Under the pieces are notes generated by a model that was not told where the DNA came from, did not search any database, and was given only the letters and a program-made list of their open reading frames with translations. A stretch of 64,000 nucleotides of DNA, from the NCBI RefSeq assembly GCF_023566055.1, contig NZ_JALIQP010000002.1:930001-994000 (forward strand). Direction: 5' to 3'. Made by a program: the position numbers and the translations under genes. Below, one piece after another: positions 6,782 through 46,346 of this stretch; the first letter of the stretch is position 1; each line of letters opens with the position of its first letter. This DNA comes from Halosolutus amylolyticus (lineage in GTDB: Archaea > Halobacteriota > Halobacteria > Halobacteriales > Natrialbaceae).

Positions 6782-7672
6782 ATGCTCGAACCGGGAGAGA
6801 GTGCGCCGACGTTCGAACGGCCCGCGGCCGTCGACGGCGAAGTTCGGCGCGCGACGTTCGACGAACTGGTCGGGGATACGGCCGTCGTGGTCGTCGTGTT
6901 TTACCCGGCCGATTTCAGCCCCGTCTGTACCGACGAACTCTGTTCGCTTCGCGACTTCGATCTGTTCGGCCTGCAGCCGGACGTGTCGATCGTCGGGGTT
7001 TCGACCGACTCGGCCTACAGTCACCGCGCCTTCGCCGAGCGAAACGATCTCGACTTCCCGCTCGTCTCCGACGGCGACGGGTCGATCGCCGACGCCTACG
7101 GCGTCCTCGAGGACGAAGCCCTGGACGGCCATCGAACCGTCGCCAGCCGATCGGTGTTCGTCCTCGACGCCGATCGAACCGTGCGATACGCGTGGGCGGC
7201 CGACGAGCGGGGCGAACTGCCCGATCTCGAGGCGGTTCGATCGGCGATCGAGTCGGCCTCCGACGACGAGACCGCGGTCGAGCGCTACCGGGTCGCCCAC
7301 CGCTGGTACCACGAGGGCCTGGAGGCGTACACCCAGGGCCACACCGCGTTCGTCGAGGCGGACTGGCTGTCCGCCGCCGCGTCCTTCGAGCAGGCGGTCG
7401 ACCCGCTCACGGAGGCGATCGAGGCGTTCGACGCGGCCCGGCGATACGCCACGGACGAGCGCGTCCGCGAGGCGGCGACGACGGCCAACGAACAGGCGAC
7501 CGATCGGCGCAACGCCGCGAAGTGGTACGCGGAGGCGGCCAGACGGTACGGGAAAGGCGACGTCGAGACGGGCGACGACTACCGCGCCGACGCCGATCGG
7601 CCCCACGCCGCCGTCGACCGCCGGGACGAACCGGCCCATCCGGACGCCCTGGTCGATCTCCTCGCGGAGTGA
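6782..7672 (+). CDS. Peroxiredoxin (AhpC/TSA) with an added helical C-terminal domain
   Basis: Residues 1-160 are a thioredoxin-fold peroxiredoxin: LEPGESAPTFERPA, FYPADFSPVCTDELCSL with the peroxidatic Cys in the PVCT motif and a second Cys five residues later, then VSTDSAYSHRAFAE and SVFVLDADRTVRYAW. These enzymes reduce peroxides. Residues about 165-296 are an extra Tyr/Ala/His-rich helical region (YHEGLEAYTQGHTAF, RRNAAKWYAEAARRY) that resembles TPR or MIT-type hairpins; ordinary peroxiredoxins lack it. The gene is divergent from the Rieske gene, so the two may share redox control. The start at 6782 is the only sensible ATG. Confidence 0.85.
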   Translation: MLEPGESAPTFERPAAVDGEVRRATFDELVGDTAVVVVVFYPADFSPVCTDELCSLRDFDLFGLQPDVSIVGVSTDSAYSHRAFAERNDLDFPLVSDGDGSIADAYGVLEDEALDGHRTVASRSVFVLDADRTVRYAWAADERGELPDLEAVRSAIESASDDETAVERYRVAHRWYHEGLEAYTQGHTAFVEADWLSAAASFEQAVDPLTEAIEAFDAARRYATDERVREAATTANEQATDRRNAAKWYAEAARRYGKGDVETGDDYRADADRPHAAVDRRDEPAHPDALVDLLAE

Positions 7673-7716
7673 CGTCGGCGTCACACACTTTTCCCGCCGG
7701 CGACGAATCGTCCGGT

Positions 7717-8070
7717 ATGGCCACCGACGCAGCGCGGCTCGTCCGACGCTACTACGACGCACTCGACGATCACGACTACGAGACGCTCGCGGACGTGCTC
7801 GCGCCCGATTTCGCCCAGCGCCGGCCCGATCGGACCTTCGAGAGCCGTGCGGCGTTCGTCCGGTTCATGCGCGACGAGCGGCCGAACCCGGAGACCCGTC
7901 ACGAACTGGACGCGATCGTCGCGGACGACGGGCGAGCGGCGGTCCGCGGCCGCGTGATCGAGGAGAGCGCGACGGACGGCGACGGCGAGCGCCGCGCCCT
8001 GTTCGAGTTCGCCGACTTCTTCGAACTCGAGGGCGATCGGATCGGCAGGCTCGAGACGTACTCCCGGTGA
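7717..8070 (+). CDS. SnoaL-like / NTF2-fold protein
   Basis: A 117-residue protein with the alpha+beta cone pattern of SnoaL-like proteins: ATDAARLVRRYYDALDDHDYETLADVLAPDFAQRRPDR at the N-terminus and RALFEFADFFELEGDRIGRLETYS at the C-terminus. The fold is used for small-molecule binding or polyketide-type cyclisation and isomerisation; no specific substrate can be inferred. It lies 44 bases downstream of the peroxiredoxin fusion gene in the same direction. Confidence 0.85.
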   Translation: MATDAARLVRRYYDALDDHDYETLADVLAPDFAQRRPDRTFESRAAFVRFMRDERPNPETRHELDAIVADDGRAAVRGRVIEESATDGDGERRALFEFADFFELEGDRIGRLETYSR

Positions 8071-8077
8071 CGCTCGG

Positions 8078-9217
8078 TCACTCGTCGCGTCCGCCCTCGT
8101 CGGCTCCATCGGACCCCGTCTCCCCTTCGGTGGCCGTCTCCGCGGACGCCGAATCACCACCGGAACTCCCGGGTGAGGCCCCGGGAGCCGGTTCCCCGGT
8201 GTGGCCGCGAGCGAAGGAATCGATGGTGAGTTTCGCGCCACCGAGGACGACGGGGCCGATGAACAGGCCGACGGCCCCGAAGGCGACGAGACCACCGAAG
8301 ATGCCGACGACGACGATCGCGGAGTTGAACGCGCTGGTCTGGCCGATCAGCGCCGGCCGAAGGTACGAATCGGAGAAGGTGACGAGCAGGCCGTAGACGA
8401 CCATCGCCGCGCCGGCGGTCGGCCGCCCGACGGCGAGGAGATAGCCCGCGGCCGGAATCCAGACCCCGAACGCGCCGACGAGCGGGAGCAACGTCAGGAC
8501 GAACGTGGCGACGGTGAGAAAGACGACGGCGGGGAGGCCGGCGATCGCCAGTCCGACGCCGAGCATCACCGCCTGGATGGCCGCGACCGCGACGTTCCCG
8601 ACGACCGAGGCCCACATGAGCTGATCCAGTCCCTCGCGGAGATCGGCCAGGATCCGGTCCTCGACCGGCAACACCCAGTGGAACCAGTCGACGAGGCGCT
8701 CCCCGTCGCGCAACAGGGCGAAGAGGACGAACAGCGTGATGGTCAGCCCGATGAACAGACTCGGCAAACTCCCGGCGAAATCGATTGCCCCCGTCGCAAT
8801 CTGCTGGAGCGCCGTCGCGATCCGGCCCTGGTTCGCTTCGTACACGGCGACGACGTCGACGGTGTACCCGTTGGTCTCGAGGATCGCCTCGACCGTCTCG
8901 ACGTCGAGCTGTCCTTGCCTGATCGCGGGGACGATACCGAGAGCCTGCCGGACGGCGATCGTGACGACGTAGATGAGCGGGAGCAGGACGACGAGCAACG
9001 TCGCCACGACCAGGGCGATCGCCGCGACCGCCGGCCTGACGTACTGCTCGAGGCGTCGCTGGACGGGAAACAGGATGTACGCGAGAACGACGCCGAACAG
9101 GACGTACTGGAGGTACGGCAGGAGAACGACCAGTCCGAGGAGCGCGCTCAGCAGTGCGATCGCGGTCAATCCGGATTGCTCGAGAATCCAGTCGGGCGGC
9201 GTGGGCCGATCGGGCAT
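8078..9217 (-). CDS. AI-2E family membrane permease
   Basis: The 379-residue protein has about eight hydrophobic segments, for example LTAIALLSALLGLVVLLPYL, AIALVVATLLVVLLPLIYVV and AIVVVGIFGGLVAFGAVGLF. The C-terminal GLFIGPVVLGGAK is the hallmark of the AI-2E exporter (PerM/YhhT) superfamily. In archaea the substrate is not known; some relatives act as sodium/proton antiporters. The C-terminus is a Gly/Ser/Glu-rich cytoplasmic tail of about 40 residues. ATG 9217 is preferred over upstream frame extensions, which reach into the truncated palindromic repeat at 9344. It converges with the SnoaL-like gene. Confidence 0.88.
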   Translation of the reverse strand: MPDRPTPPDWILEQSGLTAIALLSALLGLVVLLPYLQYVLFGVVLAYILFPVQRRLEQYVRPAVAAIALVVATLLVVLLPLIYVVTIAVRQALGIVPAIRQGQLDVETVEAILETNGYTVDVVAVYEANQGRIATALQQIATGAIDFAGSLPSLFIGLTITLFVLFALLRDGERLVDWFHWVLPVEDRILADLREGLDQLMWASVVGNVAVAAIQAVMLGVGLAIAGLPAVVFLTVATFVLTLLPLVGAFGVWIPAAGYLLAVGRPTAGAAMVVYGLLVTFSDSYLRPALIGQTSAFNSAIVVVGIFGGLVAFGAVGLFIGPVVLGGAKLTIDSFARGHTGEPAPGASPGSSGGDSASAETATEGETGSDGADEGGRDE

Positions 9218-38313: not shown

Positions 38314-39321
38314 ATGCAGCGCAGGCGCGACCCGGTCGAACGAGCGAGCGACGGATCGACAGACCTCTACGACGTCTCGACGTGGGAGCCGCGATCGGCG
38401 GTCGACGGTCTCGCGTACTCGATCTACGGCGCGATCAGCTACGGCTTGCGGGCGATCGTTCTCGGTGTAGCGATCGCGATCACGCTCGCACTGCTCGTCC
38501 AGCCGGTCAGGCTCGCGATCGAGGACCCGTGGCTCGGTGCGTTCTTCGGCCTCTCGATCGTCCCGGCGGCGTTGCTCGCCGGCTTCATCTGGTACACCGA
38601 CATCACGACGAGCGAACCGCTCGGCTTGCTGGTCGCGACGTTCCTCCTGGCCGTGCTCTTCGCGACGTTCGCCGCCGTCGTGAACTCGGTGATGGCCCCG
38701 ATCCTGCAGCCGATCGCGTACGTCGGCCCGATTCTCTTTTTCTACCTGATCGTCGGCCCCGTCGAGGAGGCGGTGAAACTGCTCGCGGTCCGCGTGTTCG
38801 CCTACCGGAGCGACTCCTTCAGGGCGGTCGTCGACGGCGCGGTCTACGGCGCGGTCGCCGGCCTCGGCTTCGCCGCCATCGAGAACGCGATCTACATCGC
38901 GGGCACGGTGGAGGCGGCACAGGTCGGGACGGTCACCGCCGCGACCGGCATCGCGACCGTCCGCGCGCTGGTCGGTCCCGGCCACGTGATCTACTCCGCG
39001 ATCGCGGGCTACTACCTCGGGCTGGCGAAGTTCAACCCCCGGTACGCCGGCCCCCTCGTCGTCAAGGGGCTTCTCATCGCCGCGTTCGTCCACGCCACCT
39101 ACAACGTCACCGTCGGCATCGTACCCGGAGCGATCGCCGCGACCTACCCGATCGGCGACGGCCTCGCGTTCGTCGGCTACGTGATCGTCTACGACGCCGT
39201 GATCGGCTACTACCTCTACCGGAAACTCGCCCGCTACCGTCGCACGTACCGCGAGACCCGGGACGACACCGGCGAACCGCCGTCGTCGGAACTCACCGAG
39301 TTCGAACCCTCACAGCGGTGA
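38314..39321 (+). CDS. PrsW-type intramembrane metalloprotease
   Basis: The 335-residue membrane protein has about eight hydrophobic segments and the PrsW motifs: GPVEEAVKLLAV (EExxK), GLGFAAIENAIYIAG (FxxxE), GHVIYSAIAGYYLG and VKGLLIAAFVHATYNVTVG (HxxxD/N type). These residues form the zinc-dependent active site of the family within the membrane. Bacterial PrsW cleaves an anti-sigma factor; the archaeal substrate is unknown. The N- and C-termini are polar. Confidence 0.9.
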   Translation: MQRRRDPVERASDGSTDLYDVSTWEPRSAVDGLAYSIYGAISYGLRAIVLGVAIAITLALLVQPVRLAIEDPWLGAFFGLSIVPAALLAGFIWYTDITTSEPLGLLVATFLLAVLFATFAAVVNSVMAPILQPIAYVGPILFFYLIVGPVEEAVKLLAVRVFAYRSDSFRAVVDGAVYGAVAGLGFAAIENAIYIAGTVEAAQVGTVTAATGIATVRALVGPGHVIYSAIAGYYLGLAKFNPRYAGPLVVKGLLIAAFVHATYNVTVGIVPGAIAATYPIGDGLAFVGYVIVYDAVIGYYLYRKLARYRRTYRETRDDTGEPPSSELTEFEPSQR

Positions 39322-39739: not shown

Positions 39740-40396
39740 TTACGCGTCGAACCGGGCCTCGAGGAGCCGCTCGACGTACTTCGCGAGCACGTCGACCTCG
39801 AGGTGGACGGGATCGCCGACGGTCTTCTCGGACAGCGTCGTCAGGTCGTAGGTCGTCGGAACGATCGCCACGGTTACGCGGGCGTTCGCGTCGGCGGTGT
39901 CGCCGCCCTCCGCTCGGTTCGTCGACGACGAATCCCCGTCGTCCAAATCGGCGACGGTGAGGCTGATTCCGTCGAGGGTGATCGACCCCTTCTCGACGAC
40001 GTAGCGATCGTACCCCGCGGGCAGTTCGAACTCGAAGTACCAGTCCTCCTCGACCGATTCGATCGCTGAGACCGTGGCGACCGCGTCGACGTGCCCCTGC
40101 ACGACGTGGCCGTCGAACCGACCCTCGGCGGGCATGGCCCGCTCGAGATTCACCGCGTCACCCTCGTCGAGGTCACCGAGGTAGGTCCGCTCGACCGTCT
40201 CGGTCGCGAGGAAAACCTCGAACCACTCTCCCTCTTCGTACCGCTCGACGGTGAGACAGACACCGCTGACGCTGATGCTCTGGCCGTGTTCGAGGCCCGT
40301 CGCGACCTCGTCGGCCCCGATCCGAAGGCGCAGGCCGTCCGCGGTTCGATCGCGGGCGACGACCTCGCCGGTCTCCTCGACGATTCCCGTAAACAT
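39740..40396 (-). CDS. ribE: Riboflavin synthase
   Basis: The 218-residue protein has two lumazine-binding barrels. Barrel 1 begins MFTGIVEETGEVVARDR and contains SISVSGVCLTVERY; barrel 2 has GHVVQGHVDAVATVSAIES and GSITLDGISLTVADL. It dismutates 6,7-dimethyl-8-ribityllumazine to riboflavin. Between the second SLTV motif and the final strands lies an extra acidic loop of about 20 residues (DDGDSSSTNRAEGGDTADAN), absent from most homologues. The bacterial-type enzyme contrasts with the RibC used by methanogens but is usual in haloarchaea. Confidence 0.95.
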   Translation of the reverse strand: MFTGIVEETGEVVARDRTADGLRLRIGADEVATGLEHGQSISVSGVCLTVERYEEGEWFEVFLATETVERTYLGDLDEGDAVNLERAMPAEGRFDGHVVQGHVDAVATVSAIESVEEDWYFEFELPAGYDRYVVEKGSITLDGISLTVADLDDGDSSSTNRAEGGDTADANARVTVAIVPTTYDLTTLSEKTVGDPVHLEVDVLAKYVERLLEARFDA

Positions 40397-40531
40397 ACTC
40401 GGAGGTGAGAGCCGACGAATAAAGACGTTCCGGATTCGGAACGCGTAACGATTCCGTGACGTGATGCGCCCGGTCGATCGGTCGTCGATCAGTCGCCGCG
40501 CTTTTGACCGGACTCCCCGTATCGGGTGCCA

Positions 40532-40786
40532 ATGGGAGGCATCATCGACACGATCAAACTCGCGGGCGTTCTCGTGCTGGCGCTCCCCGCGGCGCTGGCC
40601 GGCCTCGATCTCCTGTTGCTCCAGGGCGAGACGCTGGTCGGCGGCGCGCTGATCGCGCTCGCGATCCTGCTCGTTCTCGTCGAGCAACGGCTCACGACGC
40701 CGGGTGACGTTCCGGGGCTCGTCGCGAAGCGGCTCTTCGGGTCAGTGGTGAAAGAGCCGGAATCGGACCCCGAGTCCGACGAGTGA
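40532..40786 (+). CDS. Small membrane protein (DUF7533 type)
   Basis: The 84-residue protein has two transmembrane helices (KLAGVLVLALPAALAGLDLL and GGALIALAILLVLVEQRL) followed by TTPGDVPGLVAKRLFGSVVK, a pattern I associate with haloarchaeal DUF7533. Function unknown. Its TGA stop codon overlaps the palindromic element at 40786 (TGATACGG). Confidence 0.82.
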   Translation: MGGIIDTIKLAGVLVLALPAALAGLDLLLLQGETLVGGALIALAILLVLVEQRLTTPGDVPGLVAKRLFGSVVKEPESDPESDE

Positions 40787-41299: not shown

Positions 41300-42382
41300 C
41301 TACTCGAGCACCGCCGTCGGTTCGATCGATCGCGAGGGTGCGTCGAGCCACGCGACCTCGCGCTCGCGAACGGCGAGTACGTCGGCGAGTCGAATCCACC
41401 GATCGGGGTCGAACTCGACGGCGGCCTCGATGCGGACCAGCGAGCCAGGGCCGACCTCGTCGCCGCCGCCACGGGGGCGTTCGGCGGGTTCGAGGCCGAC
41501 GCCGGCTACCCGCGTCTCGACCGGTTCGTCAGGAAAGCCGAACCCGCGTATTTCGGCCTCGAGATCCGCCTCGACCGCGGTCACGGACTCGGTAGCGGCG
41601 GTGAGCATCGACTGAACGGACCGGAACGCCTGCGTCACGGCGACGTGTGCCCGCCGCTCCGTTCCGCCCTCGCTATCGACGACGAGCGTGCGAACGAGGC
41701 CGCCATGATAGCCCGATCGTCCTCGCGGCGCGGTCGCGACGACGATCGGCGAACCCGGTTCGAGCGCCGCGTCGCCCTCCGGAGCCGCGATCGACGTGTT
41801 CGCACCGGGAACGCCGCCCGCCGCGACGATCGCCTCGTCGACCGCGCGCCGGAGTCGACCGGGCGTCACTGCCGCGTCGTCGGCCACGAGGCGGCCGTCC
41901 GCGATCGTCGCGTCGGCGAGCACCGCTGCGGCGCGACGGATTCCCGCGCCCGCGGCCGTCTGCGAATCGGCGACGGCCTCGCGCTCGGTGTCCATCTTCG
42001 TCGCCCGCGTTCGCTCGACCACGTCGGTCGACGTAAGCGAGAACCCAGCCTGTTCGAGGTAGAGCGCCGCGTCGTGCGGGATCCGGGCCGGAGTATGGAC
42101 GGTTCCCGGACCGAGCCGATCGGCCAGTCTGGACGCGAGGGTCGCAGCGGCCCGGCCGGCCGATCGATCGCTCCACTCTACGACCCAGTCGGTTCCGTCG
42201 AACGCGAGGGCGACGCTCCCGACCGATCGCAACTGATCGCCGAGAGCCGACGGCTCGGCAGACGACAGGCAGTACCGGATCGCGGGGTCCCGGACGGAGC
42301 CGGCGTGGACGAACGCGACTGTCTCGCGGGAGTCGAGTGCCGTCGCCAGCGCCGCCTCGAGCGTGTCGTCGCCGCCAGTCAC
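41300..42382 (-). CDS. Degenerate M24 (aminopeptidase P-like) protein
   Basis: The 360-residue protein has the N-terminal creatinase-like domain and a C-terminal pita-bread fold. However, the metal site appears lost: the motif expected as DFGxxxxGYxxDxTRT reads VVATAPRGRSGYHGGLVRTL, and the His-Glu region reads GVGLEPAERPRGG. At most one Glu (VRIEAAVEF) remains. It is therefore unlikely to be an active metallopeptidase and may be a binding or scaffolding protein. Its ATG overlaps the helicase stop codon by four bases (ATGA), so the pair is co-translated. Confidence 0.78.
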   Translation of the reverse strand: MTGGDDTLEAALATALDSRETVAFVHAGSVRDPAIRYCLSSAEPSALGDQLRSVGSVALAFDGTDWVVEWSDRSAGRAAATLASRLADRLGPGTVHTPARIPHDAALYLEQAGFSLTSTDVVERTRATKMDTEREAVADSQTAAGAGIRRAAAVLADATIADGRLVADDAAVTPGRLRRAVDEAIVAAGGVPGANTSIAAPEGDAALEPGSPIVVATAPRGRSGYHGGLVRTLVVDSEGGTERRAHVAVTQAFRSVQSMLTAATESVTAVEADLEAEIRGFGFPDEPVETRVAGVGLEPAERPRGGGDEVGPGSLVRIEAAVEFDPDRWIRLADVLAVREREVAWLDAPSRSIEPTAVLE

Positions 42383-44247
42383 GGCGCTTCGGCTTCGACC
42401 TCGTCGCCCTCGGGATCGGCCGGCTGCTGGGCCTCCTCGACCAGTTCCTCGAGGGTCATGTCGGACAGGCGGTTCTTCAGCAGGACGTCGATCGGGAGCG
42501 TCGGCGCGCCGTCGACGAGGTTCTCGAGGAGCACGAGGCGTTCCCGGGCGCGAGACATGCCGACGTAGAAGACGCGCCGTTCGTTGTCCGTCAGCACGGG
42601 AACGGGCGAGGTGGTCTTGGTGAACTCCTCGCAGCCGGGGACGGCCTCGGGATCGTCCACCGTCGCGACCATCTGCTCGACGACCTTCTCGGTGAGATCG
42701 GTGCCGACGAAGACGTGGTCGGCCTCGCGACCCTTCGCGGAGTGGATGGTACCGACGCGGACGCGATCGGTGTCCATGTTCCGGTACTCGCCGATCGCGA
42801 AGTACGAGCGGACGCTCTTCTTCTGGAAGTTGGTCACCTTGCGGACCATGTCGGCCGCCGAGGCGGGACCCGGCATGAACGGGGCGTGGTCCTGAACGAC
42901 GTCTGCGGGGATCGTGAGGTCCTCGAGGTCCTCGACGTCAGCCTCCTCCTGGAGGTCGTCGATCGTATCGAAGAACTCGTCGCGTTCGTTGGTGCCGAAC
43001 GCGGAGTCCTGGAGCATGTCCGCGAGACGGCGAGCCTGCAGGCCGGTGACGTCCTCGCCTTCGTCGAGCGCCTCGACGGCCCGGACGTACTGGGTGAGTC
43101 GATCGGTCCACATGCGCTGGTCGGTCAGCGACGTGAACGGCACCCCTTCGGTGATGAACTCGTCGATGAACTGGAACATCTGGTAGCGCGCGCGGAACAG
43201 CACCATGATCGTCCCGTCGCCCTCAACGAGGGTTCGCCGGACGTTGCGGACGACGTCGAGCATCGACGCGTTCGCGCGGGCCTCGACGGCCCCGCCCTCC
43301 TTGCGGGGTTTGAGGTCCTTGTCCTGTCGCTGCTCGATGTGGCGGATTTCCTTGTTGACCGCGTTGAGCACGTTCGAGGGGAGTCGATAGGAGTTCGGCA
43401 GAATGATATCCTCGTCGACCTCCTCGTCGAGCAACAGCGCGGGGTCGGCACCCTGCCAGGAGTAGACGACCTGGTCGTCGTCGCCGGCGATCAACACCTG
43501 GTCCATGTGGGGTTTCCACTCCTCGTAGACGTCGTACTGGAGGGTGGTGATGTCCTGGAACTCGTCGATCACGAGGTAGTCGACGCTCGGGAGCAGGGAG
43601 CGCTGTTTGACGCGCTCTAACATGTCCGCGAAGCCGATCTTTCCCTGTTCGCCCTTGTAGGCGCGCCAGCCGCGGATCGCTTCGGGGACGTCGATCCGAT
43701 CGTCGTCGCTGGGCCAGGTCGGCGTGTACTTGTTGCCCTCCTGGGCGTGGGGGTCGATCTCCGGCGGGAGGCGAACTTCCTCTTCGTCCCACTGGAAGGG
43801 GACGTCGTACCAGTCGGAGACGTCCCGACTGGTCCGCTGGAGCCACTGGCTGGTGGCGATGATCTTGTTCCCGATCGTGGTCGAGCGGGCGGTGCGGCGA
43901 CCGGCACCGCTGTACTCGTCCTCGAACTCGAGTCCGAAGTCCTCACAGAACTCCTCCTTGTCGGATTCGCCGATCACGTCGCTACGAGAGAGATCGAGGA
44001 GTTCGTAGGCCTTCGCGTGCATCGTACAGACGTTCCCCTGCAGGGCGCGGGGACTCTCGTCGAGCCGTTCGGCCAGTCGTTCGCGAACCTCCTGTGCAGC
44101 CGCTCGCGTGTACGAGACGACGAGGATGTCCCGAAAGGTAACGCCGTCCTCCTCGAGGATCTCTTCGACGTGGTCGAGCAGGGCGGTCGTCTTCCCGCTG
44201 CCCGGACCTCCGAACAGCCGGGTCACCTTCGTCTCCGTGGTAGCCAT
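42379..44247 (-). CDS. UvrD/Rep-type DNA helicase
   Basis: A 622-residue superfamily 1A helicase. Motifs in order: Walker A RLFGGPGSGKTTALLD, Ia VSYTRAAAQEVRERLAER, II VDYLVIDEFQDIT, III GDDDQVVYSWQGADP, IV near SLTDQRMW, V GTIHSAKGREADHVFVGTDL, VI VFYVGMSRARERLVLLE. It unwinds DNA 3'-to-5' with ATP. The absence of a C-terminal nuclease domain makes it a helicase only. The downstream M24-like gene overlaps by four bases. A TATA-like CATAAGT lies about 25 bases upstream of the start. Confidence 0.93.
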   Translation of the reverse strand: MATTETKVTRLFGGPGSGKTTALLDHVEEILEEDGVTFRDILVVSYTRAAAQEVRERLAERLDESPRALQGNVCTMHAKAYELLDLSRSDVIGESDKEEFCEDFGLEFEDEYSGAGRRTARSTTIGNKIIATSQWLQRTSRDVSDWYDVPFQWDEEEVRLPPEIDPHAQEGNKYTPTWPSDDDRIDVPEAIRGWRAYKGEQGKIGFADMLERVKQRSLLPSVDYLVIDEFQDITTLQYDVYEEWKPHMDQVLIAGDDDQVVYSWQGADPALLLDEEVDEDIILPNSYRLPSNVLNAVNKEIRHIEQRQDKDLKPRKEGGAVEARANASMLDVVRNVRRTLVEGDGTIMVLFRARYQMFQFIDEFITEGVPFTSLTDQRMWTDRLTQYVRAVEALDEGEDVTGLQARRLADMLQDSAFGTNERDEFFDTIDDLQEEADVEDLEDLTIPADVVQDHAPFMPGPASAADMVRKVTNFQKKSVRSYFAIGEYRNMDTDRVRVGTIHSAKGREADHVFVGTDLTEKVVEQMVATVDDPEAVPGCEEFTKTTSPVPVLTDNERRVFYVGMSRARERLVLLENLVDGAPTLPIDVLLKNRLSDMTLEELVEEAQQPADPEGDEVEAEAP

Positions 44248-44629: not shown

Positions 44630-45883
<1,254 letters not shown>

Positions 45884-46160: not shown

Positions 46161-46346
46161 TTACCGGGTCGGCTCCCACCCACAGACGGTACAGGTGGAC
46201 GCGGACGGGTCGTGGAGCCCGCCACACTCGGGACACTGTTTCTTGTTATACTCTTGCTCCCACCCGATTCGTTCTACCGTGTGACCGCGATCCGAGAGGA
46301 ATTGATCGAGGACATCGTCACCGGCATCGTTGGGTGAGGTTGCCAT
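46161..46346 (-). CDS. Small zinc-finger protein (HVO_0416 family)
   Basis: The 61-residue protein ends with EYNKKQCPECGGLHDPSAST and CTVCGWEPTR, matching the haloarchaeal HVO_0416 zinc-finger family: an acidic helical N-terminus (DDVLDQFLSDRGHTVERIGW) and one four-Cys zinc ribbon. It likely mediates protein or RNA contacts. An inverted repeat (GGTGTG/CACACC, 46348-46365) lies between the TATA-like box and the ATG. Confidence 0.88.
   Translation of the reverse strand: MATSPNDAGDDVLDQFLSDRGHTVERIGWEQEYNKKQCPECGGLHDPSASTCTVCGWEPTR

Follow-up and report, generated by a model that had tools for sequence, protein, structure and literature searches.

A prolidase-fold protein with a repeatedly lost metal site is linked to a UvrD-type helicase in haloarchaea

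Background

Among described M24-fold proteins, the archaeal prolidases of the PepQ type (1pv9, 1wy2) have a two-lobe M24B fold with five metal ligands (D, D, H, E and E) and assisting catalytic histidines. Other members work without the canonical dimetal site: creatinase and the ectoine hydrolase EutD/DoeA are M24-fold enzymes of this kind, and they conserve a dedicated catalytic pocket. The origin of a pseudoenzyme is generally regarded as a single event of the distant past. One known case with a binding function is the N-terminal domain of human Spt16, part of FACT: it has the aminopeptidase fold but no activity, and it binds H3/H4 (PMC4741192).

In Haloferax volcanii the UvrD helicase is HVO_0415, whose deletion is reported to give no sensitivity to UV or mitomycin (PMC7776575), and the protein has been co-purified with Cas1 (PMC9051519). 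HVO_0416 encodes a small zinc-finger protein of the CPxCG type (PMC6490895). Our literature search found no paper on an M24 gene linked to this helicase and none naming HVO_0414; the M24 protein 'HVO_1309' (PMC7714728) was considered as the linked gene and rejected, as it carries another locus number.

We analysed a window of 64,000 nucleotides from Halosolutus amylolyticus (genome of 4.59 Mb), for which the original prediction, made from the sequence alone, had proposed an M24 protein lacking its metal site and coupled to a UvrD-type helicase, and had likened it to Spt16 with a possible role in chromatin or repair.

Results

The M24-like open reading frame begins with a GTG at 42382 while the TGA stop of the helicase occupies 42381-42379, so that, as had been proposed, the two genes have four bases in common (Table 1). 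Four-base overlaps are common in archaeal operons and the overlap alone is therefore weak evidence of a link; the two genes are probably part of one transcription unit. The upstream partner has both the N- and C-terminal domains of the UvrD/PcrA/Rep helicases (PF00580, E 2.4e-29; PF13361, E 9.3e-14) together with the superfamily 1 motifs, and UvrD, Rep and PcrA are its closest solved structures. The downstream protein belongs to the M24 superfamily by its Pfam Peptidase_M24 match (E 4.9e-7, 30.2 bits against a cut-off of 23). In contrast, it scores 13 bits with the NCBIfam model for archaeal PepQ (NF040821), for which the curated cut-off is 630.

Table 1. Coordinates of the gene pair, its sites and the neighbouring conserved genes in the window
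Feature	Position	Strand	Basis or remark
Riboflavin synthase (Lum_binding) of conserved block	39740..40396	-	Pfam; directly behind helicase in some families without the M24 gene
DUF7533 protein, convergent, in conserved block	40526..40786	+	Pfam, locus comparison
M24-fold protein without complete metal site (pseudo-prolidase), 360 aa, GTG start	41300..42382	-	Pfam, AlphaFold2
Codon of A333, column of last metal ligand Glu	41384..41386	-	alignment with intact orthologues
Codon of E319, sole metal ligand retained	41426..41428	-	alignment with intact orthologues
Codon of A293, column of metal ligand His	41504..41506	-	alignment with intact orthologues
A276-E277, subfamily signature	41552..41557	-	E277 invariant in 124/124; A276 nearly so
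GG-x-x-RR (239-244), subfamily signature	41651..41668	-	invariant in 124/124 non-redundant copies
Codon of G228, column of metal ligand Asp 2	41699..41701	-	alignment with intact orthologues
Codon of A216, column of metal ligand Asp 1	41735..41737	-	alignment with intact orthologues
H103-D104, subfamily signature	42071..42076	-	nearly invariant, intact and decayed copies
GTGA overlap, helicase stop / M24 start	42379..42382	-	ORF coordinates
UvrD/PcrA-type superfamily 1 helicase, 622 aa	42379..44247	-	Pfam and motifs GPGSGKT, DEFQD, GDDDQ, VGTIHSAKG, SRARERL
Small CPxCG zinc-ribbon protein upstream of helicase, HVO_0416-like	46161..46346	-	locus comparison

We set the ligand columns by alignment with the prolidase 1pv9 and with intact orthologues. 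Four of the five ligands are replaced in the window protein (D216A, D228G, H293A and E333A) and only E319 is kept, which agrees with the proposal that all recognisable ligands but one had gone. The two columns of the assisting catalytic histidines, which are H in all intact copies, correspond to E289 and A300, leaving the protein with neither the five ligands nor the assisting histidines of an active M24 metallopeptidase or prolidase. An alignment artefact can be ruled out because all ligand columns sit within well-anchored motifs (GYxGxxxRT, GVG and RxxD).

The fold is nevertheless predicted to be intact despite the loss of the site, as had been supposed. An AlphaFold2 model based on an alignment of 51 relatives from named genomes has a mean pLDDT of 95.1 and a pTM of 0.91, giving a confident prolidase-type two-lobe fold. 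Its best solved neighbours are prolidases, matched over the whole length with Z of about 29-30: the Pyrococcus horikoshii enzyme (1wy2) aligns at Z 30.3 over 318 residues and that of P. furiosus (1pv9) at a Foldseek E of 5.1e-18. The N-terminal domains of Spt16 match somewhat less well (5ce6, Z 26.6). What the window protein shares with the inactive M24-fold domain of Spt16 is thus the general fold only; the fold is a plain M24B one, for which such a match is expected, and the likeness is not specific. The dimerisation and middle domains of Spt16 are absent from the window protein, which at 360 aa has no further Pfam domain and is covered over the whole model by the M24B fold.

To describe the conservation of the pair, which the original prediction had named as a check, we surveyed related genomes. 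The helicase is found in 289 of the 292 genomes sampled from the class, and outside the class the phylum sample gave distant matches only. A profile of the linked M24 subfamily splits the genomes into those with strong matches, of the linked type, and those with weaker matches of about 1e-52 to 1e-69, mostly paralogues. For 92 genomes the places of both genes were listed, and in every one the M24 gene comes immediately after the helicase and shares its strand. The same adjacency is found in 8/8 further genomes, several of them from another family, making a total of 100/100 across several families. A pairing confined to close relatives, which would have refuted the original prediction, is thus not what the survey shows. 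No copy of the linked subfamily relocated away from the helicase was found among the genomes with both places listed; two candidates for such copies, L030 and L058, turned out to be more distantly related M24 proteins that lack the complete subfamily signature. Within the family of the window, 115 of 117 genomes retain the M24 match. Among 124 non-redundant relatives the M24 gene starts no more than 12 nt from the helicase stop in 121, and a GTGA-type overlap as in the window is present in 68.

The M24 gene is missing at the locus in several families, and the helicase is followed there by riboflavin synthase or DUF7533. Apart from one broken Haloquadratum copy (J07HQW2), we found no remnants of the gene at the loci without it. 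The helicase, DUF7533 and riboflavin synthase often remain together where it is absent. Gene order is generally conserved in this block, so the adjacency of the pair may have been inherited without a functional link. Two other genes lie close by in the window: a TnpB/OrfB gene of the IS200/IS605 type (Cas12f1-like TNB domain, OrfB_IS605; 44630-45883, minus strand) between the helicase and the zinc-ribbon gene, and a PrsW-type intramembrane protease gene (38314-39321, plus strand) near the conserved block.

Writing the residues of the five ligand columns in order, 37 of the 124 non-redundant helicase-linked copies are intact (DDHEE) and 87 are decayed. Decay is generally extensive: at least three columns have changed in 82 of the 87 (five in 29, four in 37 and three in 16). 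Next to this same helicase, the DDHEE site is seen in Halorubrum, Halogeometricum, Halalkalicoccus, Haloparvum, Halobaculum and others. It has decayed in every sampled member of the window's family, at all Haloferax loci examined (SAGRT, SAGRV and AAGRT) and also in Halobellus, Halogranum, Halohasta, Halonotius and others; another family holds two further decayed groups, DAYEG and DRHAA. Within Halorubrum the loss has begun in H. salsamenti (DDHEG), H. saccharovorum (DDHGE), H. amylolyticum (EDHEG), H. halodurans (DAHEG) and H. rubrum (DAREG). At the column of A300 (window codon at about 41483-41485), where intact copies have His, Arg is a recurrent replacement, present in 56 of the 87 decayed ones.

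On a helicase tree of 125 rows the fewest state changes that explain this distribution are 12, and there are 12 maximal clades in which all copies are decayed. A smaller tree under a mixture model needs 6 changes, and the well-supported branches alone force about 3-4. About 12 independent losses, several of them within Halorubrum, fit the helicase tree, though weak support at many inner forks leaves the exact number uncertain. One sequence in this tree, L154, is titled Halobellus captivus strain ZY8 but groups with Halorubrum and differs from H. captivus ZY21 (L134); it is possibly misnamed.

Intact M24 paralogues exist elsewhere in the same genomes, and all 12 of the full-length non-linked paralogues sampled keep DDHEE. 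One genome (G003) has, on a 0.24 Mb contig, a second M24 copy (L058) with an intact DDHEE site and a partial signature, its linked copy being decayed. This second copy may be a mobile relative.

What the linked copies have in common is a signature made of HD, GGxxRR and AE, a set that the non-linked M24 paralogues do not share. G239, G240, R243, R244 and E277 are invariant in 87/87 decayed and 37/37 intact copies. The ligand columns, invariant in the intact copies, have an entropy of 1.8-2.8 bits in the decayed ones compared to a column mean of 1.84. This free drift argues against a substitute metal site or a metal-free chemistry. We also listed the conserved Asp, Glu, His and Cys residues of the window's family, where pocket columns vary by up to 2.7 bits, and none forms a conserved ligand-like motif; at the level of sequence, the reading of the protein as lacking its metal site therefore held against the alternative ligands that the original prediction had set as its test. 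Truncated linked copies of about 212-222 aa (L142 from Haloplanus ruber, L070 and L071 from two related genomes) are without the N-lobe and keep GGxxRR and AE.

The median pairwise dN/dS (NG86; pairs not independent) is 0.33 for decayed copies, 0.27 for intact copies and about 0.1 for the helicase, and in the pairs measured the M24 value is never above about 0.53. These values, well under 1, point to purifying selection that continued after the loss of the site and is only mildly relaxed. The window gene itself is not a pseudogene, given its open frame, a dN/dS of about 0.3 and the retention in its family. A true pseudogene is present in Haloquadratum walsbyi J07HQW2 (L155, about 6897-8220), where the linked M24 gene is broken into three frames and the helicase remains open.

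Discussion

Repeated loss of the metal site with the gene, the fold and the adjacency to the helicase all kept suggests that this protein has a lasting job other than cutting peptides. We read it as a pseudo-prolidase that is retained because of a non-catalytic function, probably that of a helicase partner, and give this reading a probability of about 0.5. The helicase is the likeliest partner because it invariably precedes the M24 gene, which nearly always starts within 12 nt of the helicase stop. Under this model translational coupling would yield the M24 protein alongside the helicase, and the M24 protein would bind the helicase, or a partner of it, through a conserved face carrying GGxxRR and E277. 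Selection would then preserve a binding function of the folded protein, which would act as an assembly or regulatory subunit with catalysis at most an optional extra. Several points stand against the model: conservation extends over the whole block, the Haloquadratum copy is broken, intact copies too evolve faster than the helicase, and no UV or mitomycin phenotype has been reported for H. volcanii UvrD (PMC7776575). The helicase is also present in families without the M24 gene, and the partner is therefore not essential to it. More tentatively, a repair-type helicase of haloarchaea may well have a dedicated subunit derived from a prolidase, in which the chemistry would have become dispensable early and been shed repeatedly while the helicase-binding face (GGxxRR, E277) was maintained.

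The gene may instead record a fading enzyme: within a conserved block, a prolidase that is redundant loses its site, then parts and then the whole gene, so that the linkage is historical and selection weak. The intact paralogues in the same genomes, the families where the gene is absent without remnant, the truncation in Haloplanus, the broken Haloquadratum frame and the somewhat higher dN/dS of decayed copies all fit this course of events. We consider it rather unlikely, however, as the gene is retained in nearly all genomes of the window's family long after the site was lost, dN/dS stays below the ceiling given above, GGxxRR and E277 are invariant while the ligand columns drift, and none of the sampled non-linked paralogues has decayed. 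Continued enzymatic activity, whether through ligands that have moved or through a metal-free chemistry as in creatinase or EutD/DoeA, is improbable. Metal-free M24 hydrolases appear among the structural matches, they resemble the window protein in having the fold without the canonical metal site, and the E319 column is acidic in 41 of 43 members of the family. Yet the dedicated pocket conserved in those enzymes corresponds to columns that drift widely in the window's family, the columns of the two assisting histidines have been lost or vary, and the newly conserved acidic and histidine residues (e.g. D182, H246, E275 and E298) appear to have no ligand-like motif.

The proposed parallel with Spt16, in which an inactive pita-bread domain would bind archaeal histones or other chromatin proteins, now seems very improbable. 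The window protein would resemble the Spt16 domain in keeping an inactive M24 fold for binding, and human Spt16 does use such a fold to hold H3/H4. Nonetheless, both sequence and structure are nearer to prolidases, and no accessory domain of Spt16 is present. Intact relatives remain among the haloarchaea, so the site was lost inside this group, independently of Spt16, and we saw nothing in the genomic context that ties the gene to histones or chromatin genes. The original prediction thus stands for a fold-preserving M24 protein without its metal site that is stably linked to a UvrD-type helicase, and is not supported for the Spt16 parallel and the chromatin role. More improbable still is a value mainly in cis, whereby translation or the coding sequence of the M24 gene tunes expression of the helicase transcript: the tight coupling of its start to the helicase stop would fit, but selection on the protein is evident from the invariant residues of the signature and from dN/dS values well under 1. 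Compared to archaeal PepQ, then, the window protein has the same two-lobe M24B fold over nearly its entire length and differs in its missing ligands and histidines, its GGxxRR/AE signature, its position beside a helicase and its score far below the PepQ cut-off.

The pair is more general than the local case first described. It joins a pseudo-peptidase, repeated independent loss of its site and a conserved gene pair with a helicase. Active-looking and inactive states of one gene beside one helicase can be compared across and within genera, a natural experiment that bears on what such proteins do besides catalysis. Deletion of the haloarchaeal UvrD is not known to cause a UV or mitomycin phenotype, and the M24 protein is a candidate partner of this helicase that can be put to the test.

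By gene context the window helicase is the same as H. volcanii UvrD (HVO_0415), which adjoins HVO_0416. A homologue of the HVO_0416 type precedes the helicase both in the window and at the named Haloferax loci, which supports orthology of the locus. Judging from the loci of its congeners, the M24 neighbour in H. volcanii is presumably decayed. All sampled Haloferax copies are decayed, and the question can therefore be asked in a genetically tractable genus.
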